Origin: a virus
Strand: one strand, 5' to 3'
Length of the DNA stretch: 41,069 nucleotides
Virus record (IMG/VR): IMGVR_UViG_3300044617_001060
Location: 1 to 41,069 of that record
The notes beneath the pieces are model-generated. The model ran no database searches, had not been told where the DNA came from, and saw nothing but the letters and a program-made list of their open reading frames with translations. Shown one piece after another: positions 3,662 through 20,701 of the stretch. The position numbers and the translations under genes are program-made. The first letter of the stretch is position 1; every line of letters begins with the position of its first letter.

Positions 3662-6600
3662 TTACATCTCGCTCAGCCGCCGAAGAACAGCCACGGTGGA
3701 CTGTCCCTGGGCACTGGCGACTCTCATCTCTTTGGCCGCTGCCTTGATCTCCGGGAACTCCCGGAGCATCTCGATGCGCGCCTTGCGCTGGTACGCCGCG
3801 ATGATGTTGCGTACGCGGACGACCTTGGGGTTGTCGTTATCCGACGAGTTGACCGGGTCGGGCAGGGTGTCCCAGACGGGCTTGTTGACCAAGGCCTCCA
3901 GGGCCTGGTGTATGGTCTTGCCCTGGATGGTCACCTTGCCGACGCGCTCGAACATGACGTCGTACGCCTCACGGCCGTTCTTGCGAACGCTGCGGAGGTC
4001 GATGCCCTCCCACGTCGTTGCCGGCGGGTGGAAGCCAAAGCGCAACGAGGCGAGCTCGTTGAACACCTTGTCGCCCACGTTGCGCGACAGACCGACGGGA
4101 GACATGAACGTACCCCAGCGATCCGCAGTGGACCCGCTCGCGTCATTCCAACCGAGCCACCCCGCGTTCGGGGTGACGGGTTCGCCGAGCAGGTTGCGCC
4201 GAGGAGGGACCTCGTCGGACATGCCGGGAAGACGACGGCGGATGCCGTCCAGGACGCCGCGGGTCTCCTTGAGCGTCGGGTCGTCCCCGAACGCCTGGTC
4301 GTACCGCGCGAGCGCGGCGGGCACGAGCGACCCAGCCCGATTGCTCAGGATCTTGGTCGCCTGCGCGCCGGTGGGGTTGTTGAGCAGAGTCATCAACTCC
4401 TGCACGCCCGTGAGGTACGTCTTGCTCGTCAGGTTTCGAGCGAAGGACCAGATGGCCTTGGTGGCTACGCCCTCGGTCTCTCCACGGCGCATGTACGCCA
4501 TGCTCTCGGACGCGTCGGCCACGATGCCGAAGATCGAGGAGAACGGGTCGAACCGACGGAACTCCAGGTACTTGGTGGTGCCGTCTTCGTCCTTGATGAC
4601 GAAGCTGTACGGACGCCACCCGGTCGCCTGGAGAACCTGCTTCTCCTCGAGGTTCTCAGGACCGCCGCCGGTGATGAGACCGTTGGCCGCGAGCCACGTC
4701 GCGTACCCCGTGATCCCGAACGCGGCGACCATCTCGCCGCGATGGCGGAGAACCTCGTCCGCGGTGCGCACCTCGCCGTGCTTGGCCATGTGCGCCTCTT
4801 CCATCAGCCCGAGGAACGGGACGTGACGGCCGGCGGCATGGAGCATGTTCACGGGGGCCTTCAGGAACGGCAGGAACAGATGCAGCCAGGGGTTCTTGGC
4901 GCGCAACCGATCCAGCCCCGGCCCGAGGTTGCCCAGCATCTCCTGGGTGAAGTTGACGCTCTGGGCGTACTTCACTGCCTCGAGATGCAGGAACTTGTCG
5001 GGGTCGGTGGGGTCCAGAGCCGCACGACCGTAGTCGTCGTACGCCTCGGTGATCTTCTTCTCGAGCGCAGCCGCAGCCACCAGAGGCTTCTGCGCCTGGG
5101 GGACCGCGGCGTTCTGCCAGACTTCCACGTCGACCTCGTCCATCATCTTCATGCGGATGAAGGCCTGGTAGTTGAGCTGGGACCAGAACTCTTCGGCGGC
5201 CTGGTTCAGGACGAACGGGACGCGCACGAGGCGGCCCCAGCCGTCGATGGCCTGCTTCACGACAGGCGTCTGAGCCCACGAACCGAAGTTGTCACTCTTG
5301 ATGACTCCCATCGACTCGGAAGCAGTTGTAGCCTGGAGGGTGTTGATCTCGGTCTTGATCGTTCTCAGGACCGATCGGACGCCCCTGAAGCCCTTCTGGC
5401 CTGCAGGAGGGGCAATGGCGACGGAGTACGCCATGTCCTTGAAGGCATGCGCGACCCCGGTCATCAGCCTCCAGCTGTTCTTCACTTCTGACAAACCGTT
5501 CCCGCGCGCGGCTTCCACCAGGGAACCGAGCATACGGGCCATGGGCTGGTAGAAGGTCTGGATCCCGCCGCTCAGGGTGTTGATGCCCAGCGTCGGGATA
5601 CCGCTCAGGATCGAAGCCTTCCAGTGCTCCAGGAACACGTCGAGCATCCCGTAGGTCGCAGCGTTCCGGGCGCGCTGGACGGTCTTGGGGAGCTGGCCGG
5701 TCTTGGAGCCGGCCGTGATGACCTGGGCAACCCTCTGGATGCGCGCCTGTTGAGCAGGGGTAAGCCCCTGAGCAGGCGGTGGCGCAGGCAGTGCGGGGTT
5801 CGTGCCAGGGGCAGCCCCAGCAGGATTGCCCCCACTTGGCTGTGGAGGCGCGCTGGGCGATCCTGGAGCCGCGGGGGCACTGGGAGTGGGCTGAGCCGGC
5901 GACGCGCCAGGAGCGATCGTAGGGCCACCGGCGGGGGCCGGGGCTGCTCCTGGGGTTGGTTGCGTAGTTGGCGTCGTCGTGCCGGCGGCCGCGGCGTTAC
6001 CCTTGGGGGCCTTGGCCTTCTTCGCGGGCTTGGGGGAGGTCTTCACGATCTTGCCAAGCTGAGCGTCGACGACCGTCTCGGCGGTCCTGGCGAACGCGTC
6101 TGCCAGCGCACGGTCGCCCTCCTGGCGCGCCTTGTTGGCGAGCTCGGTGTACTGCCGCGCGTTGTCGGTGTTCAAACCAGCCAGCATGTCCTTGAGACCC
6201 TGGACCTTGGCCTCGTCCATGTCACCGACGGCGATGTTGCCCGAGGTCACCGCGACGGCCGCGGCGCGCTGGGTGCGTGCTCTCAGCTCACCGACGTGGC
6301 TGAAGGAAGACAAAGCATCCATGACGCGCTTGAGGTCGCCCTCGTCGGTCGGGACGCCCTGCATGGCCTTCAGGTCCACGGCGCGCGCGGAGTCAGCCAG
6401 TTCACGGGCGAGCGCGTTCTCCATGATGCGCAGTCCGACGATCTTGGCGGCCAGAGAGTCGGTCTGCTTTGCGTTCGCCTCGAGCCAGGAGATGAACTCC
6501 TTGGGGCGCATGGCCAGGTCGTTGGCCATGACCTTGATGTCATCGAGAGTCAGCAGGTTCTTGATGTGCTGCGCGCGCGAGCCGCCAAAGGCGGGCTCAA

Positions 6601-9600
6601 AGTCACGGAGCAGACCAACAACGTCAGCGTCCTCGAAGATGCGACCCTTGTTGATGTGCGGGCGCATGGCGTAGACGGCCGCGGTGGGTTCGTCGAGTCC
6701 GTTTGCACGGGCCTCCTCGAACGCCTCCTTGATCCGTTGCACCATCTTCGGCCCGTCACCGGGGTCATCCAGGTACGGGTGGTCCCAGGCCCACGGGGGC
6801 AAGAGACCGATCTTCTGATCGGCGAACCGACGGTCCTTGGGATGGACCCAGTCAGGATCTCCCTGAGCGGGGATGCTGCCGTCTGCACGGCGCATGTGCT
6901 TGCCGGAGTTGACCCAACTGTTCTGACCACGGGTCTCCGTCGTGAGCGCGGGGATGGCGTCACGAGAGAACATCGACGCGTGCGTCAACCAGGCACGCTC
7001 TTCGCCCTTGGGGCCGAAGGTCGAACCGTCCGCCCCGTGACCGAAGACATCGTGGACGAACCGGAACACGTCGTTGACCGTGACTTCATACGGCTTGCCT
7101 TCGGAGTCCATGATGACTTCGCCGGTCTTGGCGAGCAGCGGGTTGTCAAGCTCGCCACCAGACCCAGTCCCGAAGGACGTGGTCTCGTCGTTGTTGGTCT
7201 TGAAGACGTACAGCCGGCGGTTGGTCTCCAGGTCTTCGATCATGGCCTGGGAAGACGCGTAGCTGAACTTGCCGGCGTCGGGAACCATCCTCAGGCCCTT
7301 GGACTTCAGGAACTCGTACTGGGACATGGTCTCGGTGGCCAAGGCGCGGTACGCCGCGACCACCTGGGGGTTGGTGGGGTCGTGCTGCATCTCGTCGAAA
7401 GCATCGGCGAGACGCTTGGAGAGCTCCTGGTCGAACTGGGGCTTCTCTCCACCGCGCACTTTGGGGGCACTGGGGAACGATGCGGTGTACTCGTCCTTGA
7501 GGGTCGAGGCGATCTTCGACGCCTTGGGAGGAGTCGTCGACGGCTTCGTGCGCAAGGGGTTGGCACGGTTCCAGTCGGAGCCGAGCATGCGGTCGAACAC
7601 ATCGCGCTGCGAGTCGGTGAGTGTGTTCGTGAGCGGGGACTTGACGAGGTGCTCGTAGATCGAGGTCATCCAGTCCTTGAGCGCAGCGAACACGCCGACC
7701 AGGTCAGACGTCGGAGCCTTGCCCGTGCTCAAGTACGTCTCGAAGCCTCGGGCGAACATCTCCTCTTCGCGGACGGTCCACTTGTTGGGGTCGACCACGC
7801 CGAAAGCCTTGGCGGCCTTGTCGTGCAGCTCGGGAGCAAGCTCGGCGGCCTGCCGACGCCAGATGTGGCTGGCCTCGTGCAGGAAGGTGGACTTGTCGAA
7901 GCTGGTGGATGGGTCGGCGTTCTTGAACAGAGTGACCATGGCGCGCCCGTCGTCCATGAACTGGACCTGCCCGCGCGCGCCCTGGCTCAGTCGGTCTGAT
8001 CCCCCAGCTCCTCCAGGAACTGCGGATCCTGCTCGGCGACCACCTCCCACAGCTCCTGCAGTTGGCTGTCGGACATCGAACTCGATTCGGGGTCCGGTTC
8101 GAGAGGCGGTTCGTTCACGCCGGAGGGCGGTGATTTCTTCAGGGGTTCGTCCATTGATGACATCTCCTGCGGCGTCGGCGAAGTCATCGAACTCGATGCG
8201 CTGCGCTCCCATCCGCTTGTACAGATCCTTCTCGTGATACCAGAGGATGGCCTGTGCGGCGGCCATGTTGACCTTCTTGCCGTGCTTCTGCTCGGTGATC
8301 TCCAGCGCACGCTTCATCGCCGTGCGCATGGCTTCACGCTCTTTGGAGTTGCGCGGAGCAGCCGCCGCCCCTTCTTCCAGGACGCGCATGCGGTTGGCCC
8401 AGCGATCGACGGCGTTGCCGTCCTCGAAGCCGCGGGCCTCGAAGTCCTTCTGGAGCTTGGTGTACACGGTCTGCCGGTACGCCTCGTCCTTCTTCAGCTT
8501 GGCAAGGTCGACCCCGGCGAGCTGTTCAGGAGTGGCCTCCGCGAACACCTCGTCAATCTGTTTGACCTGGCGCGCCATGGCCTTCTTCTTTGCTGCCTTG
8601 GTTGGCACAAGAGAGCCACGGAGCCGATTCCAGGTACGCGCCCACCAAAGGTCCATGGTGAGACCGGAGGCGTGCCCGTCCATGTTCGCCAGGAAGAGAC
8701 CGACCTTCGGCCCCAGCATCGACGACCCAGGGAGCTTGGCGTTGACGCCTTCGCCGTTGGGCTTCTTGATGCCGTCGCGCACCATTTCACCGACGGTGCG
8801 TTCATTGCGGAACATCTTCCGCATCTCCTCGAAGCCTACCGTGTCCAACAGGTTCTGCACCTTGCGGACGTTCGCCTGGATGGCGGCGATGTTCTTGCCC
8901 GAGAGCTTCGCGCTGTCGGGATCGAACTTTCCGGTTGCTTTGTAACCCTCGAAGAGTGAAAGTGCACCTTCAATGTTCTGGTGCACGTTGTTGCCCTGGC
9001 TGGCGATGGCCAAGGCGACCTTGAACAGGTACTTGTCGGGAGTGTCGCCCGCCTCACCCAACGTGGGGTGCTTGGCGGACAGCGTGGTGAACATCTCCTC
9101 CACACGGTTGTTGTACCAGTCGGGGGACTGCTTGCCCAGGGGCTGCTCGAGAGCGAACGCAAGCTCATCCGACAGGGCCTGCGCTGTCTCCTCCATGGTC
9201 TTCGGGGAGAAGTCGCTGGCCTTGTACTTGCGCACCGCGGCCTGCCTCTGCTGGAGAGCTTCCTGGAGATCCAGGGTGCGCACACGGCCGCCCTTGCCCG
9301 AGGGCGTGACGGTGAGCCTGTCCTGGCCGCTAAACACGGGGGACGATCTCAGGATCTGCTTCAGCGCGTTGGGGTCGATGGTGCCATCCTCGCGGACGGT
9401 GAGACCAGCGACGGCCTTCTTGTACACGTCCTCGAGGCTCTTGCCGGAGTGCACAGCCAACGTGGCGAACATTCGGTCGGTCACGTCCATCATCTTGCCG
9501 GCGTCATCGCCGTACGCCCCAGCCAACGCTTCGGAGAGCTGGGTGCGGACAGGTCCGCTGCGGTCGAACTTGGGACGCTCCCAGAGCTTACCCTGCACCA

Positions 9601-10603
9601 GGGCCTCGGCGTCATCGGGAGAGAGCTTGCCCTCTTCAGCCAGACGCTTCGCATCCTGGCGAAGGATGTCGAATCGACGAGGGTCGATCGGTGCGTCAGG
9701 ATTGCCGCGGATTGCGTTGAGACCCTTGTGCGCCCCGTAGAAGACGCCCTCGAGTGCGCCGTCGAACAGCACACCAGCGAACGCCCCCTCGACCGCGCCA
9801 CGCAGCTTCTGGAGAGCCCAGTGGTCATCGGGGTTATTGGCGAAGGCCTTGGCCCACCAGTTGTCCTCGTCGAGCGCGCCCATGTCGACAGCCATGTCGG
9901 TGAGCGTGCCGTCGAAGCGCCCTTGGGCGACCAGGTCCATGGCGAACATGCCGGCGGCCTGCTTGGAGAAGAAGTTGGACGTCAGTGCGCGCTTGCCGAT
10001 CTCGGAGAACGAGGCAGCCCCGGACGCCGCCGTGCCCGCCGCGCGCGCGGTGTACGCCGCACGCGTCATGGCAAAGCCGCGTGTAGCAGAGCCCGCCGCG
10101 CCCATCAGCATCACCGGAGCGGCCAGACCGCGAAGACCGATGCGGCCGAAGATGGTGCGGCTGCCGACGCCGAGCTCGTCGATCATGTTCTTGTCGAACA
10201 GGGTATCATCCTCGAAGAGGTCACCGCCAAGCTCTTCGATGCCCTGGTCCAGCGTGTCGTTGATGCCCACGCCGAAGTCCATGATGGCCTGGGGAGCCAT
10301 CAACGCCAGCTCCGCGCCGACATCGGCGACGGTCTGGAGACCTTCGTTGTCCGGGCTGTACGCGCTCTGCGCGGTCAGGATGTCGCCCAGGCCACCGGGC
10401 ATGTACTCTTCGCCGTGGACGGCCTTGTTGATCTTGTTGGCGATGGCACGCCGCACGACGTACGCGGTGTTGTTTGTGGCAGCGGTGTGCCGCTGTGTGT
10501 TGGCGACCCGCTTGAGACGCTCGCGTTCGGAGCGTTCGTACTCGGACTCGCCGGGGAGTTTCCCGGAATAGACATCGCCGACGATGTCTCTGGATTCTTC
10601 CAT
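3662..10603 (-). CDS. Giant internal virion / ejection protein at gp16 position, with metallopeptidase motif
   Basis: A 2313-residue protein in the place of T7 gp16 (1318 residues), which forms the ejection conduit. Two bases after a good AGGAG comes ACAC and the chosen ATG at 10603; coding-quality sequence begins there. Residues about 160-300 contain alanine/glycine-rich hydrophobic stretches. A zinc metallopeptidase motif HEASH lies at 909-913, followed by a REEEMFARGFETYL segment, a combination typical of phage polyvalent-protein metallopeptidases. A second histidine motif HDVFGH starts at 1184. An alanine/proline/glycine linker spans about 1520-1620, and the long C-terminal part has aromatic and hydrophobic helices. 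I saw no lysozyme-type transglycosylase signature like that of T7 gp16. A coding-like alternative frame lies inside (7987-8154). Confidence 0.85.
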   Translation of the reverse strand: MEESRDIVGDVYSGKLPGESEYERSERERLKRVANTQRHTAATNNTAYVVRRAIANKINKAVHGEEYMPGGLGDILTAQSAYSPDNEGLQTVADVGAELALMAPQAIMDFGVGINDTLDQGIEELGGDLFEDDTLFDKNMIDELGVGSRTIFGRIGLRGLAAPVMLMGAAGSATRGFAMTRAAYTARAAGTAASGAASFSEIGKRALTSNFFSKQAAGMFAMDLVAQGRFDGTLTDMAVDMGALDEDNWWAKAFANNPDDHWALQKLRGAVEGAFAGVLFDGALEGVFYGAHKGLNAIRGNPDAPIDPRRFDILRQDAKRLAEEGKLSPDDAEALVQGKLWERPKFDRSGPVRTQLSEALAGAYGDDAGKMMDVTDRMFATLAVHSGKSLEDVYKKAVAGLTVREDGTIDPNALKQILRSSPVFSGQDRLTVTPSGKGGRVRTLDLQEALQQRQAAVRKYKASDFSPKTMEETAQALSDELAFALEQPLGKQSPDWYNNRVEEMFTTLSAKHPTLGEAGDTPDKYLFKVALAIASQGNNVHQNIEGALSLFEGYKATGKFDPDSAKLSGKNIAAIQANVRKVQNLLDTVGFEEMRKMFRNERTVGEMVRDGIKKPNGEGVNAKLPGSSMLGPKVGLFLANMDGHASGLTMDLWWARTWNRLRGSLVPTKAAKKKAMARQVKQIDEVFAEATPEQLAGVDLAKLKKDEAYRQTVYTKLQKDFEARGFEDGNAVDRWANRMRVLEEGAAAAPRNSKEREAMRTAMKRALEITEQKHGKKVNMAAAQAILWYHEKDLYKRMGAQRIEFDDFADAAGDVINGRTPEEITALRRERTASRTGPRIEFDVRQPTAGAVGGGRRAGSAVPGGAGGSDRLSQGARGQVQFMDDGRAMVTLFKNADPSTSFDKSTFLHEASHIWRRQAAELAPELHDKAAKAFGVVDPNKWTVREEEMFARGFETYLSTGKAPTSDLVGVFAALKDWMTSIYEHLVKSPLTNTLTDSQRDVFDRMLGSDWNRANPLRTKPSTTPPKASKIASTLKDEYTASFPSAPKVRGGEKPQFDQELSKRLADAFDEMQHDPTNPQVVAAYRALATETMSQYEFLKSKGLRMVPDAGKFSYASSQAMIEDLETNRRLYVFKTNNDETTSFGTGSGGELDNPLLAKTGEVIMDSEGKPYEVTVNDVFRFVHDVFGHGADGSTFGPKGEERAWLTHASMFSRDAIPALTTETRGQNSWVNSGKHMRRADGSIPAQGDPDWVHPKDRRFADQKIGLLPPWAWDHPYLDDPGDGPKMVQRIKEAFEEARANGLDEPTAAVYAMRPHINKGRIFEDADVVGLLRDFEPAFGGSRAQHIKNLLTLDDIKVMANDLAMRPKEFISWLEANAKQTDSLAAKIVGLRIMENALARELADSARAVDLKAMQGVPTDEGDLKRVMDALSSFSHVGELRARTQRAAAVAVTSGNIAVGDMDEAKVQGLKDMLAGLNTDNARQYTELANKARQEGDRALADAFARTAETVVDAQLGKIVKTSPKPAKKAKAPKGNAAAAGTTTPTTQPTPGAAPAPAGGPTIAPGASPAQPTPSAPAAPGSPSAPPQPSGGNPAGAAPGTNPALPAPPPAQGLTPAQQARIQRVAQVITAGSKTGQLPKTVQRARNAATYGMLDVFLEHWKASILSGIPTLGINTLSGGIQTFYQPMARMLGSLVEAARGNGLSEVKNSWRLMTGVAHAFKDMAYSVAIAPPAGQKGFRGVRSVLRTIKTEINTLQATTASESMGVIKSDNFGSWAQTPVVKQAIDGWGRLVRVPFVLNQAAEEFWSQLNYQAFIRMKMMDEVDVEVWQNAAVPQAQKPLVAAAALEKKITEAYDDYGRAALDPTDPDKFLHLEAVKYAQSVNFTQEMLGNLGPGLDRLRAKNPWLHLFLPFLKAPVNMLHAAGRHVPFLGLMEEAHMAKHGEVRTADEVLRHRGEMVAAFGITGYATWLAANGLITGGGPENLEEKQVLQATGWRPYSFVIKDEDGTTKYLEFRRFDPFSSIFGIVADASESMAYMRRGETEGVATKAIWSFARNLTSKTYLTGVQELMTLLNNPTGAQATKILSNRAGSLVPAALARYDQAFGDDPTLKETRGVLDGIRRRLPGMSDEVPPRRNLLGEPVTPNAGWLGWNDASGSTADRWGTFMSPVGLSRNVGDKVFNELASLRFGFHPPATTWEGIDLRSVRKNGREAYDVMFERVGKVTIQGKTIHQALEALVNKPVWDTLPDPVNSSDNDNPKVVRVRNIIAAYQRKARIEMLREFPEIKAAAKEMRVASAQGQSTVAVLRRLSEM
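7987..8154 (-). CDS. Nested out-of-frame coding segment inside the giant virion gene
   Basis: A 55-codon frame, offset from the giant gene, starts with ATG at 8154. AGGAG lies 9 bases upstream, and TGA ends it at 7987. Its codons are strongly G/C-ending (runs such as CTG CAG GAG CTG TGG GAG GTG GTC GCC GAG CAG). The main frame across the same bases is rich in A/T-ending Gly, Arg and Ala codons and reads as a loose linker. The product is acidic, proline-rich at first, then probably helical (segment QLQELWEVVAEQDPQFLEEL). Either this is an overprinted gene, or two compensating single-base shifts near 8130-8154 and 7990-8014 displaced the true frame. If the second, its end joins well to the main-frame residues before the metallopeptidase. 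Confidence 0.45.
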   Translation of the reverse strand: MDEPLKKSPPSGVNEPPLEPDPESSSMSDSQLQELWEVVAEQDPQFLEELGDQTD

Positions 10604-10610
10604 GTGTCTC

Positions 10611-13043
10611 CTACTTTCCTGAGAGGACCTTGTTGAGGTCGTCCCTTTGTTTGCCTGCAACTTCCTGCACCGACTTGGCCGCCTGGAGAAGCTCGGCCGC
10701 TGTCGGGATACGCACGGGATAACCCATGCTCCGGTGGCCCAGCACCTTGAGCCCCGCAGCCTCCAGCGTCGCGATGTACTCATCCAATGGGACGCCCTCT
10801 ATTGGGCGTCTCCATAAACGCGTGCCGTCTTGGCTTTCGATAATGAGCAGCAGGTCGGGGTCGGCGCGGTACTTGTGCCACCCGGCGATGCGCTTGGAGG
10901 TCTCCTGGGACTCTTCGGCTTCCTCGACGCGCGCCTTGGACCAGGCGTCGTAGTTGCCGCCCAAGGCGACTTTGGCCATCGAGTCGAGGAACGCGTCCTC
11001 GCGGTAGTCCGGGTAGTTGACGGCCTCTGCCCGCATGAAGTCCACGAACGCGGGGAAGTCTGCTGGCGTACCAAGACCACGGGCCATCTCGTCGAGCGTC
11101 TTGCGGCCTTTGCTCCGGAGCTCCTTCAGGGAGCCGAACATCTTGAAGCCGGCCGTCATGGGGACCGGGGTTGATCCGGGACCTTGGTGAACTGCCGGCC
11201 CATTCGGGGTGAACGTGAAGGACGTTGGCTGGGTGAGCACGCCGGCGTCGTCGACGACCCTGCGCTGAAGCATGAGTCCCGCTTCGTACCGCTCGTCCGC
11301 GGCCTGTGCTTCCTTGGACTCTGTGGCCTTCTTCAGGTACGGCCTTAGCGCAGTCTGCGCGGCCGATGCAAGCTCATCTGCGAGCTGATCGGGAGGGAGG
11401 TCGCTTGGGATGCGTGAGGCCGCGATGTTGAAGGCCATGGACGACTTTGCCAAGGCCTCGAAGTACAGCGGGTCGACATACGTCTGCATGTCGCCGTTGG
11501 CGTCCTCGCGTTCGGTGGTGAGCGTGTTCTTCAGCGTCTGCCGCATGAAGTCCGCCTGGTCATCCTGCAGATCCGCACCGAGCTCCCTGCTTCGATGGAT
11601 GAACCCGACAATGATGCCCTTCTGGGTCCCCACCGTGAGGCTCGGGATCTCCTTCAAGGTCTTGATGAGCTCCGGCAGGCTGGTGGCGTATAGGGCCGCT
11701 TCTTGAGCTCTGCCAAACGAATCCAGGTCATCCTCAGTGACCCGGTTCACCGGGTTCACAAGGTCTGCGTAGTCGCCCAGGGTCTTAGTGGCGGCGGCCA
11801 CGTTGTAGCTCTGGTCCATCACGAGCAAAGCCGCCACGACGTCCTGTTCGATCTTATCGAGAGGCTCACCATTGTGCACCCGCTCCATACCGTTGCCGAG
11901 CACGTCGCGGTACGCTTCCTGCTCACCGGCCTTGACAACCGATTCCCAGGTCAGCGCAAGCTGCGCTTGGATTTCAGGAGAGAACGTCGAGAGAGCGGCG
12001 AACACGTCCTTCTCGGTGAATGGCTTGCCCGTCTTCTTCGAGTTGAGCCACGCCACAGAGACAGCCTCTTTCGCCTCGTTCACCTTGCGCGCGTAGGTGC
12101 GCTGTTCCGCGGAGTACGCCTCTTCCTCTTCCCGGCGGATGTTGTTGGCGATGGTGTCCTTCACGCGCTCGACGGTGCCGGCTCCCAGGGTCTCCTGGAG
12201 GGACTTGCCGTCCAGAACGATCGTGTCCATGATCTCCTGCATGTCGTCGATGGAGCGACCATTAGACGTGGTCAACGCTTGGGTGAGAGCACCCAGAATC
12301 TCGGTCGGCTGGAAGCCGTGGGCTCTTGCAGCGGCCAGGCGTGTGTTGATCGTCTCGGCGACCTTAGCGGCCGGGGTGGTCCCGGCGACCTCAGCGGTCG
12401 ACGGGGGTCCGACGACCTCAGCGGCCGGCGTGGACCCGGCGAGCGTGGATCCGGCGAGCGTGTTGGAGAGCTCAGCGATCAAGCCCTGCCGGCCCATCGC
12501 GGCGCGCTCGTTTGCACGGCGCGTCAGGTGCTCTCCGATGAACTGACCACGGAACCGGTCGAAGCTCTCGCCCACCGCGCGCAGCTCATCAGGACGCAGG
12601 TCCTTCATGTACGGGTCGAGCTTCTGGCTGAGCCAGCGGTCGACCGCCTCGGGGTTGTCGTCCGCGCGCACGGGGTCGGTCTCGTACTCCTGGGCGACCG
12701 TGTTGGTCAACGCCGTGAACTCTTCGCGCCTCACGAGCTGGCGCATGAACGAGGCCTTCCAGGGGTTCGACTCTGCGTCGATCTGGCCAGACTCGACCGC
12801 TGCGTTGAACTCGCGCATCGACTTGAGCTGGAGCTTGCGGAAGTCTGACTCAGCCTCCAGGGCCGCGGTGTTGCGCTTGTTCGCCATGTAGTCCGAGGAG
12901 AACTGCTGGAGCTCCGGCTTGAAACGCGAGAGCGCGCCGGCAAGCTGAAGCACGCTGTCGCCCGCCCCGGCGTCCCCGCGGACTTCTCCGGGAGCGAACA
13001 TATCGACCGGCCGTGCAGCCGGGCTGAGGGATACTCTGCTCAT
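10611..13043 (-). CDS. Internal virion protein (T7 gp15-like)
   Basis: An 810-residue, largely helical protein between gp14- and gp16-like genes, the position and size of T7 gp15 (747 residues), which is part of the ejectosome that crosses the periplasm. Sequence features fit: long charged helices, an N-terminal GALSRFKPELQQF segment typical of this family, and no catalytic motif. Its ATG overlaps the upstream TAA as TAATG, indicating coupling. Residues about 195-230 are a low-complexity Ala/Pro/Thr/Val stretch encoded by 27-base tandem repeats (12360-12462), probably a flexible surface loop. The stop lies 7 bases before the gp16-position start. Confidence 0.88.
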   Translation of the reverse strand: MSRVSLSPAARPVDMFAPGEVRGDAGAGDSVLQLAGALSRFKPELQQFSSDYMANKRNTAALEAESDFRKLQLKSMREFNAAVESGQIDAESNPWKASFMRQLVRREEFTALTNTVAQEYETDPVRADDNPEAVDRWLSQKLDPYMKDLRPDELRAVGESFDRFRGQFIGEHLTRRANERAAMGRQGLIAELSNTLAGSTLAGSTPAAEVVGPPSTAEVAGTTPAAKVAETINTRLAAARAHGFQPTEILGALTQALTTSNGRSIDDMQEIMDTIVLDGKSLQETLGAGTVERVKDTIANNIRREEEEAYSAEQRTYARKVNEAKEAVSVAWLNSKKTGKPFTEKDVFAALSTFSPEIQAQLALTWESVVKAGEQEAYRDVLGNGMERVHNGEPLDKIEQDVVAALLVMDQSYNVAAATKTLGDYADLVNPVNRVTEDDLDSFGRAQEAALYATSLPELIKTLKEIPSLTVGTQKGIIVGFIHRSRELGADLQDDQADFMRQTLKNTLTTEREDANGDMQTYVDPLYFEALAKSSMAFNIAASRIPSDLPPDQLADELASAAQTALRPYLKKATESKEAQAADERYEAGLMLQRRVVDDAGVLTQPTSFTFTPNGPAVHQGPGSTPVPMTAGFKMFGSLKELRSKGRKTLDEMARGLGTPADFPAFVDFMRAEAVNYPDYREDAFLDSMAKVALGGNYDAWSKARVEEAEESQETSKRIAGWHKYRADPDLLLIIESQDGTRLWRRPIEGVPLDEYIATLEAAGLKVLGHRSMGYPVRIPTAAELLQAAKSVQEVAGKQRDDLNKVLSGK
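12360..12462. repeat. 27-base imperfect tandem repeats within the gp15-like gene
   Basis: Three consecutive 27-base units (12360-12386, 12387-12413, 12414-12440) each begin GACCT(T/C)AGCGG. They are followed by two shorter 15-base-type units starting GAGCGTG. They encode 9-residue Ala/Val/Gly/Pro/Thr repeats in the gp15-like protein. Being a multiple of three, copy number could vary without breaking the frame. Confidence 0.85.
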
Positions 13044-13699
13044 TATCTGCTCCAGAAGGTGGCCCGCTCGTCGGGGGTCATGCCTTGGTTGAACTGGTTG
13101 AACCCGCCGAACAGGTCGCCGCCAAGCCCGACCAGCAACGCCGAGGTCGAGGGACCGCTGACCTTGTTGGGCGCGGCCTGGGCCAGACGACTCTGGAAGC
13201 CCGCCGCCATGGACTGACGTTCGGCGACGCCCTGCTGGCGACGCCACTTGATGTTCCTGTCGAGGATGTACGCGTCGGTGTACTCGAGAGACCTGTAGGT
13301 GTCGATGAGGCCCTTGACGCTGTTGCCGCTGACCCCGCGCGCGGACGTTACCGCGGTAGCCGTGCCGATGTTCGCGGCGTTACCCTTGGCCAACCGGTCT
13401 GCCTCGATGGTCGTCGCGGCGAACTCCTGGTCGTCGCGGATGGCGAGCTGTCCCAGGTTGAAGCGGTACTCGTTGGCGGCGGCGTCCCCGACCGCTCTGT
13501 AGCGTTCGTTCTGGACGCGCTGCTGTTCGGCGGCCTGCTGGGCTTGGCCGTAGTACGCCATGCCGGTGGTGGCTGCGCTGATGGCGGTGCCAGCGATGGC
13601 CAGGTTCGCGCTAAGCGCGGCTGATGCCGCCGCTGCTGCGGTCGCACTCCCCGCTGCCGCCGTAGCCCCGCCCATCATGGCGGCAGTGACGATGCACAT
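13043..13699 (-). CDS. Internal virion protein (T7 gp14-like)
   Basis: A 218-residue protein with an alanine/glycine-rich hydrophobic N-terminus (about 5-50) and a charged helical remainder. T7 gp14 (196 residues) has the same plan and forms the outer-membrane pore during ejection. The start is ATG at 13699 because GGAG lies a few bases before it and the hydrophobic segment begins right after. It overlaps the upstream gp13-like frame by 89 bases and couples downstream by TAATG. Order gp13-gp14-gp15-gp16 supports the call more than any single motif. Confidence 0.87.
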   Translation of the reverse strand: MCIVTAAMMGGATAAAGSATAAAAASAALSANLAIAGTAISAATTGMAYYGQAQQAAEQQRVQNERYRAVGDAAANEYRFNLGQLAIRDDQEFAATTIEADRLAKGNAANIGTATAVTSARGVSGNSVKGLIDTYRSLEYTDAYILDRNIKWRRQQGVAERQSMAAGFQSRLAQAAPNKVSGPSTSALLVGLGGDLFGGFNQFNQGMTPDERATFWSR

Positions 13700-19225: not shown

Positions 19226-20701
19226 TTACGCTTCCCAAGAGAGTGAACGCTCGAGTCCCGGAAAGCGTTGCCCCGGCCTGCGCCGGAGAGGGACAAGGGC
19301 GGAAGATGTTGAAGAGGCGTTGCCTGAGTCTGCGATCAGGTCGGCAAGGCGAAGCGCGACAGCGGTGTAGCTCTCGTCGGTTTGCGCGATTGCGCCAACC
19401 GCCAAGTGTGCGCTGCCGCTGACGTTGTTGGCGTCGTACCGCGGCACAAGGCCGCTGCCAAACTTGTCGGTCAGCTCTTTGATGGTGACGACGTCGTGGA
19501 TGTCCAAGGACGCCACATCGGTCGGGTTCTCTGCCGCGAGCTCAGCAGCCACCTGGCGGTATGCCGCCTGCGTGTCGTTGGTGCCGTAGCCCAACGGGTG
19601 GTCAACCTGGAGAACGAAGCGAAGAACATTGCCTGGGTAGAGCTCTGTGTCTCCCCAAGCAGTCCGAACCCGGCTGATTATCGAAGCAAGGTTGGACTTG
19701 AACGTGGCAGCGGACACCGTCAGGTAGTCGTTGGCCCCGATGATGATCCAGCACAAGACGTGGTTGCTGCCGATACCCTGTTGAGAGCACATACAGTCGC
19801 GGTAGTGCTGGAGCTTTGTGGTGCCCATTGCCGACAGGTACGAATCCAGCTCGGCGGCCTTGGAGCCGCCCACGCCGTAGAACGTCTGGAACCCCCAGCC
19901 GGCCGTGGCGTTCTTGCGCACGACGCGCTGGAACGAAGCCATGAACGGATAGGTTGTGGCCAGCGTGTTGGTGCCGAACCACCGAGCAATCAAGCCCTGG
20001 GCGTTGGGCGCGGAGTACCCGGTCGGCCAGTCCGCGGTGAACGGAACAGCGGTGAGCACTGTTGACGGCTGCCCGTGTGTCGTCAACGCCACGAAAGATT
20101 GGTGACCTCCCGTGGCGTTGAGAAGCTGCACGTTCTGGTCGATCAAGACCGGAGCGTCTGCTGTGGTCCACTTGGCGGCCCAGACCTGGTACTGAAGCTG
20201 GTGAGTGGCGTCTTGTGAGTATCCCACCGCGTTCGTGTCGTACAGGCGCATGCCGAACGTACCAGCAGGGTTGGCCGTGGGGCTCGCGGTGGAGACCCAG
20301 TAGACCTCCTCAATGACCTGGTTGCGGTTTCCGCTGGAGTTTCCGGTGTCGAACGACGTGGACCATACGCCGGAGATTCCGGCTGGAGCAGCACCAGCTC
20401 GCGCGTCAAGGGCACTCCCTCGGTACGCGTTGTACCGAATCGTGTCACTGTTGGTGCCGTCAGAAGTGCCTCCAGGGCCGTGTCCCAGTCCTTGGCCCTG
20501 CGACTCGCCACAACCGAACAAGCCGGTTGAGTAGCATGCGTCGGGGTACATCCGCGCCAAGAGACGACGCAGTCCGGTGTCCCACCCAGCCGCCTGGTAC
20601 AGGCCGTTGCTGTCCGACATGAGCACGACGTCCACCAGGCGCGTGCGGCTTCGATTCAAGAAGTCACGGACGATCCCGAGGTTTCGTGTGTAGGTGGGCA
20701 T
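19226..20701 (-). CDS. SGNH/GDSL hydrolase-like virion-associated protein
   Basis: A 491-residue protein between scaffold module and major capsid. The N-terminus has block I of SGNH hydrolases as VVLMSDSNG (Ser 31), with the usual glycine of GDS replaced by Ser. Block III is GAND (Asn 324). A late AHLA with His 432 could be block V, although the usual Asp three residues earlier is absent; D423 is a possible substitute. A beta-rich insertion (about 115-270) separates blocks I and III. If active it would remove acyl or acetyl groups from host surface polysaccharide. It might otherwise be a structural relic. The gene sits in the capsid operon, with 18 bases to the capsid start, so the product is probably made in large amounts and may be a capsid-associated protein. 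Confidence 0.7.
   Translation of the reverse strand: MPTYTRNLGIVRDFLNRSRTRLVDVVLMSDSNGLYQAAGWDTGLRRLLARMYPDACYSTGLFGCGESQGQGLGHGPGGTSDGTNSDTIRYNAYRGSALDARAGAAPAGISGVWSTSFDTGNSSGNRNQVIEEVYWVSTASPTANPAGTFGMRLYDTNAVGYSQDATHQLQYQVWAAKWTTADAPVLIDQNVQLLNATGGHQSFVALTTHGQPSTVLTAVPFTADWPTGYSAPNAQGLIARWFGTNTLATTYPFMASFQRVVRKNATAGWGFQTFYGVGGSKAAELDSYLSAMGTTKLQHYRDCMCSQQGIGSNHVLCWIIIGANDYLTVSAATFKSNLASIISRVRTAWGDTELYPGNVLRFVLQVDHPLGYGTNDTQAAYRQVAAELAAENPTDVASLDIHDVVTIKELTDKFGSGLVPRYDANNVSGSAHLAVGAIAQTDESYTAVALRLADLIADSGNASSTSSALVPLRRRPGQRFPGLERSLSWEA

Follow-up and report, generated by a model that had tools for sequence, protein, structure and literature searches.

The window analysed here, a stretch of 41,069 nucleotides, is the 41-kb viral contig IMGVR_UViG_3300044617_001060 from IMG/VR. 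Its genes encode a T7-like RNA polymerase, a DNA polymerase, a primase/helicase, a portal, a major head protein and a large terminase. The nearest match of the terminase is at 56%, which leaves the phage without a close relative in the collections. Neither a nucleotide search for relatives of the contig nor a search with the C-terminal part of its giant gene found any. This giant gene occupies the gp16 position as an ORF of 2373 codons (3662-10783, minus strand) and is the longest gene of the phage. Over its first ~60 codons (10603-10783, minus strand) the ORF is not in phase and shares sequence with the end of the gene upstream of it (10611-13247); as evidenced by codon phase and an AGGAG followed by an ATG, the true start is probably located at about 10603 and not at 10783. 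So delimited (3662-10603, minus strand), the gene encodes a giant polyvalent-type virion protein, the C-terminal part of which matches PHROG 6651, 'internal virion protein'. The protein also matches PHROG 9880, and its Pfam search for large-polyvalent-protein (LPD) domains returned zero families above cut-off. Two other proteins of the contig have no PHROG match, the 878-aa protein adjoining the giant gene (10611-13247, minus strand) and a 491-aa protein beside the major head gene (19226-20701, minus strand).

Wholly within the giant ORF lies a second ORF with its own start, ribosome-binding site and stop (7987-8154, minus strand). Its frame is +1 with respect to that of the giant gene, and its product, of 55 aa, is MDEPLKKSPPSGVNEPPLEPDPESSSMSDSQLQELWEVVAEQDPQFLEELGDQTD*. 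Read directly from the sequence, a Shine-Dalgarno (SD)-like AGGAG (8164-8168, minus strand) precedes the ATG by 9 nt and the frame closes with a TGA, just as the first-pass annotation had described an embedded ATG with AGGAG upstream and a stop. The run of five C that it had pointed out at 8010-8014 is likewise present; on the coding strand (minus) it is a run of five G within the nested gene, near its end. The nested product is strongly acidic with a net charge of -13, and a low-confidence prediction from the single sequence (mean pLDDT 67) gives it a C-terminal hairpin of two helices. The peptide has neither a hydrophobic signal nor a cysteine and thus lacks the signal peptide and lipobox of an Rz1-like protein. 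No homologue was found among viral contigs, phages and retrieved loci, and searches of Pfam and PHROGs gave no match. Comparison with the other nested peptides described below yielded a best p of 0.045 in ten tests, which is not significant.

In the main frame the nested stretch reads as a Gly/Arg/Ala-rich linker that joins a conserved helical domain to an HExxH metallopeptidase-like domain. The helical domain (the 'QAILWYHEKDLY' block; 8156-8700, minus strand) lies immediately 5' of the nested gene, ends in QAILWYHEKDLYKRMG...DFADAAG and is homologous to the giant proteins of loci L002-L008, L009 and L015. The metallopeptidase-like domain ('LSQGARGQ...STFLHEASH'; 7574-7995, minus strand) was recognized by motif and homology; the DNA for its first residues includes the nested stop codon. 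It is common to the giant proteins of BPP-1, HU1, Jess A and many prophages. Main-frame homology is therefore found on each side, in agreement with the earlier description of both flanks as coded in the main frame. The reading that two separate genes meet here was rejected, as no stop interrupts the main frame and the ORF is a single fused one in most relatives; in L074 the giant ORF is split, but at a point distant from the nested stretch.

Polyvalent proteins of phages and conjugative elements are multi-domain proteins with a zincin-like MPTase (Iyer et al. 2017, PMC5512222). The host gene in the window resembles them in being giant and multi-domain with an HExxH metallopeptidase-like domain; its very long product, with the LHEASH motif and homology to giant phage proteins, can be counted among them. 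Motif and context suggest that the metallopeptidase-like domain belongs to the zincin MPTases of that study.

An exact 13-bp direct repeat, ATCGAGTTCGATG, is located at 8074-8086 and 8185-8197 (minus strand), 111 bp or 37 codons apart. Both copies encode IEFD in the main frame and one of them lies within the nested gene. About 0.04 such matches are expected by chance. A tandem duplication with the 111-bp spacing was rejected as the origin of the repeat, as the remainder of the unit fails to align.

Codon usage was tested against a null in which the synonymous codons of the main frame were randomized by the genome's own usage (20,000 recodings), a procedure that controls for composition, conditional on the present main-frame protein. 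The embedded-minus-main codon score is +26.5 nats compared with -14.8 ± 5.2 under the null, and none of the 20,000 recodings reached it. Across the nested codons the main-frame GC3 is 0.375, while the null has a mean of 0.77 and a minimum, over all 20,000, of 0.54; the main frame thus does turn to A/T-ending codons here, as had been noticed in the first place. Counting against a nested gene, a Gly/Ala/Arg-rich main frame in GC-rich genomes tends toward an open, GC3-rich +1 frame. In a three-frame Viterbi codon segmentation start and stop codons were scored as neutral, and at each of four switch penalties (6, 8, 10 and 12) the +1 segment came out as exactly 8154-7990. It thus begins with the ATG and ends with the last sense codon, although the model was blind to these signals. 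ATG or GTG codons with an SD-like site make up 0.34% of the +1-frame codons of the giant gene (8/2373), so that a chance landing of a segment edge on such a start is unlikely. Codon tests and blind segmentation together confirm the coding-like frame that the first-pass annotation had placed out of frame at 7987-8154 in the gp16-position giant gene. Another frame is also preferred, at low switch penalties, in a Pro/Ala-rich linker of the giant protein (5772-5978, minus strand), where the signal appears to reflect composition only.

Locus L125 carries a nested ORF of 61 aa just before the same metallopeptidase domain. Searching with its main-frame protein we found relatives, most of them with a nested ORF at this position. 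The search for the nested family itself gave 39 loci, three of which are cut at a contig end, and in 39/39 a long main-frame ORF contains the small one in its +1 frame. The start ATG is kept, and nearly all of the 39 have an AGGAG-type site before it. Within the overlap, substitutions are distributed as 29/27/44% over nested codon positions 1/2/3, nested position 3 being main position 1; in the upstream flank, which is coded in the main frame alone, 54% of substitutions fall on main position 3. Mean amino acid identity across the overlap is 60% for the nested and 47% for the main-frame peptides. By this sequence conservation the L125-type nested ORF is proven to be conserved as a gene. The model predicted for its product (mean pLDDT 76) shows a helical hairpin and a flexible tail, and a structure search of a viral library with this model gave no match at E≤0.001. 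The family resembles the window ORF in its pre-metallopeptidase position, +1 frame, similar size, predicted helices and AGGAG-ATG start, but shares no sequence similarity with the window peptide. In L323, L325-L327, L330, L331 and L334 the L125-type gene is lengthened to 113-144 aa.

Retrieved loci were screened for SD-started nested ORFs that outscore the main frame in codon usage and have flanks well coded in the main frame. Among long ORFs, with 1200 codons or more (438,000 codons), there were 29 of them, 29/29 in the +1 frame; this count includes near-duplicates and corresponds, by eye, to roughly fifteen independent families. With 25.2 nats the nested ORF of the window is among the stronger cases. 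Seven more were obtained from ORFs of 250-1200 codons (184,000 codons). Two of these, L232 and L286, are fragments of giant genes, and others look, on inspection, like misassigned main frames. The phase switch in L198 was judged to be the end of an upstream gene and not a nested gene.

For pairs of nested ORFs from divergent giant genes we compared the similarity of the nested and of the main-frame peptides over the same DNA with 5000 shuffles. In three pairs the nested peptides are significantly similar and the main-frame peptides are not. The nested similarity of L009-L111 was reached by 0/5000 shuffles and the main-frame similarity by 2361; the corresponding numbers are 0 and 2360 for L232-L253 and 0 and 4967 for L230-L250. 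L338-L341 and L015-L337 are similar in both frames. Purifying selection on the nested frame is thus seen for other nested genes of the class, in the L125 family as well as in other pairs. Complete genomes carrying such ORFs include Limnohabitans phage DC33, Podoviridae ctQRb9 and ctEw122, Myoviridae ct7L0027 and Synechococcus phage MinM2, and at each of these sites the giant CDS alone is annotated. Six of the nested peptides (L111, L125, L156, L288, L325 and L009) have no free-standing relatives in the phage collection. That of L015 gave a single weak match (E 0.3), under a feature that a Bradyrhizobium phage record labels peptidase T.

The nested ORFs recur at particular domain junctions. The QAVLWYxEKRLY block of the helical domain is directly followed by a +1 nested ORF in the window, as is its homologue in L009, L015, L111, L271, L280 and L281. 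In the window and in L125, L147, L271, L281, L286 and L288 the nested stop is no more than a few codons away from the metallopeptidase motif, and the peptides that end there are mutually unrelated. L271 has the same order as the window, from domain to nested ORF to metallopeptidase, with a nested ORF that lacks a clear SD site. Counting against a nested gene in the window, many giant proteins, among them those of BPP-1, HU1 and UFJF_PfDIW6, have the same metallopeptidase domain and no nested ORF.

Three options had been offered for the frame switch: an overprinted small acidic protein, a programmed frameshift giving a shortened virion protein, or two compensating indels. The first is the best supported, because the edges of the segment match the SD-ATG and the stop and because the architecture recurs as conserved genes; the indels are unlikely and the frameshift is superfluous. 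We consider it likely that the small ORF in the window is a genuine overprinted gene with a translation start of its own. Ribosomes would initiate within the giant mRNA at the ATG at 8154, using the AGGAG 9 nt before it, translate 55 codons in the +1 frame and terminate at 7989-7987, where the metallopeptidase-like domain begins. In the main frame the same DNA would provide a flexible Gly/Arg/Ala linker between the two domains, and because such a linker is loosely constrained in sequence, the small gene can dominate codon choice. The five-G run at 8010-8014 is not needed for this explanation. Because no relative of the peptide was found and the phage has no close relative, we infer translation, function and selection for the window ORF.

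Two compensating single-base indels, either sequencing or assembly errors or real mutations, would instead make the embedded peptide a true part of the giant protein. Taken alone, the codon-phase signature fits such a pair of indels, and a homopolymer run lies at 8010-8014. HU1 and its relatives also have an acidic in-line stretch before 'DQT' that is vaguely similar to the embedded peptide. This in-line similarity was tried and is not significant; among the retrieved relatives the main frame has no significant match to the embedded sequence; the presence of that sequence in line had been named as fatal to the idea of a nested gene. Moreover, the weak main-frame similarity to L002 passes the start of the nested ORF and continues to about residue 897, roughly 20 codons into it, which fits a stretch that codes in two frames better than an indel at the ATG. 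Indels would give no reason for blind boundaries that fall exactly on the SD-ATG and on the stop, and conserved nested genes at the same type of junction elsewhere would be a coincidence. We regard this explanation as improbable.

More doubtful still is programmed frameshifting, which would produce a truncated giant protein or fuse the N-terminus of the nested peptide to the metallopeptidase part. The five-G run near the end of the nested ORF could serve it, and in the window the nested frame is open 5' of the ATG. However, the SD-ATG is sufficient by itself, and an unsystematic look noticed no slippery site common to the unrelated cases. Many members of the L125 family, from several subgroups, have TAA as the nested-frame codon just before the ATG. 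Entry from upstream is impossible there, and the protein of these subgroups can only arise by internal initiation. Least probable of all, a non-functional ORF, be it a composition artefact of GC-rich, low-complexity linkers or the decaying remnant of a gene absorbed in the fusion of two genes, would be in keeping with a peptide that has no homologue, but is hard to reconcile with the synonymous null (0/20,000), with an intact start, SD and stop, with a codon phase that a remnant is expected to lose and with the purifying selection in other members of the class.

The proposed overprinted gene has a counterpart in the Rz/Rz1 spanin pair of phage lambda, in which Rz1 is fully nested in the +1 frame of Rz with its own SD and start, and acts as a lipoprotein together with Rz in lysis. 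In both cases a small +1 gene with its own SD and start lies fully inside a larger phage gene. The window differs in that the host gene encodes a giant multi-domain virion protein and that the nested product, without a lipobox, is encoded in an interdomain linker. Genes nested in a different frame are known in phages, usually as isolated cases. Small proteins translated separately within a larger gene are described for the intragenic antitoxins of Rpn toxins (PMC10327210); these are reported to be C-terminal domains of the host protein, whereas the window ORF encodes an unrelated protein in another frame. Compared with the polyvalent proteins described so far (PMC5512222), nested small genes form an additional layer: searched by term, that paper mentions neither overlapping genes nor frameshifts, and it uses 'nested' for a hairpin fold only. 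The literature covered, which largely excludes subscription journals, holds no report of nested genes in polyvalent proteins, and their novelty is provisional.

As for its role, the product is most likely a small accessory protein, helical and co-produced with the giant virion protein, an assignment we make with low confidence. Judging by position only, it might assist or regulate the adjacent metallopeptidase, or else DNA delivery or ejection; a helical adaptor or regulator would be a similar guess. Looking beyond this phage, we lean slightly towards the view that giant polyvalent phage genes contain widespread unannotated small +1 genes at domain junctions, including an exchangeable pre-metallopeptidase slot that holds unrelated proteins, and that these supply co-produced accessory factors such as peptidase regulators, ejection partners or anti-defence peptides. 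In the loci compared here, nested +1 genes constitute a recurrent, conserved class within the largest genes of many phages, hidden by annotation in the records checked. They provide a set of specific small phage proteins for testing and account for the odd codon usage that linkers of giant phage proteins can show. With unrelated small genes in the pre-metallopeptidase slot, gene birth or capture inside other genes becomes directly testable.

Some giant genes hold more than one such ORF. In L004 one giant ORF of 3697 codons has four or more +1 nested candidates, among them one that reaches up to 161 codons. In L267 (1078-1263) and L269 (3177-3362) a second +1 ORF of 61 aa has its ATG directly after the L125-type stop, forming tandem nested genes.
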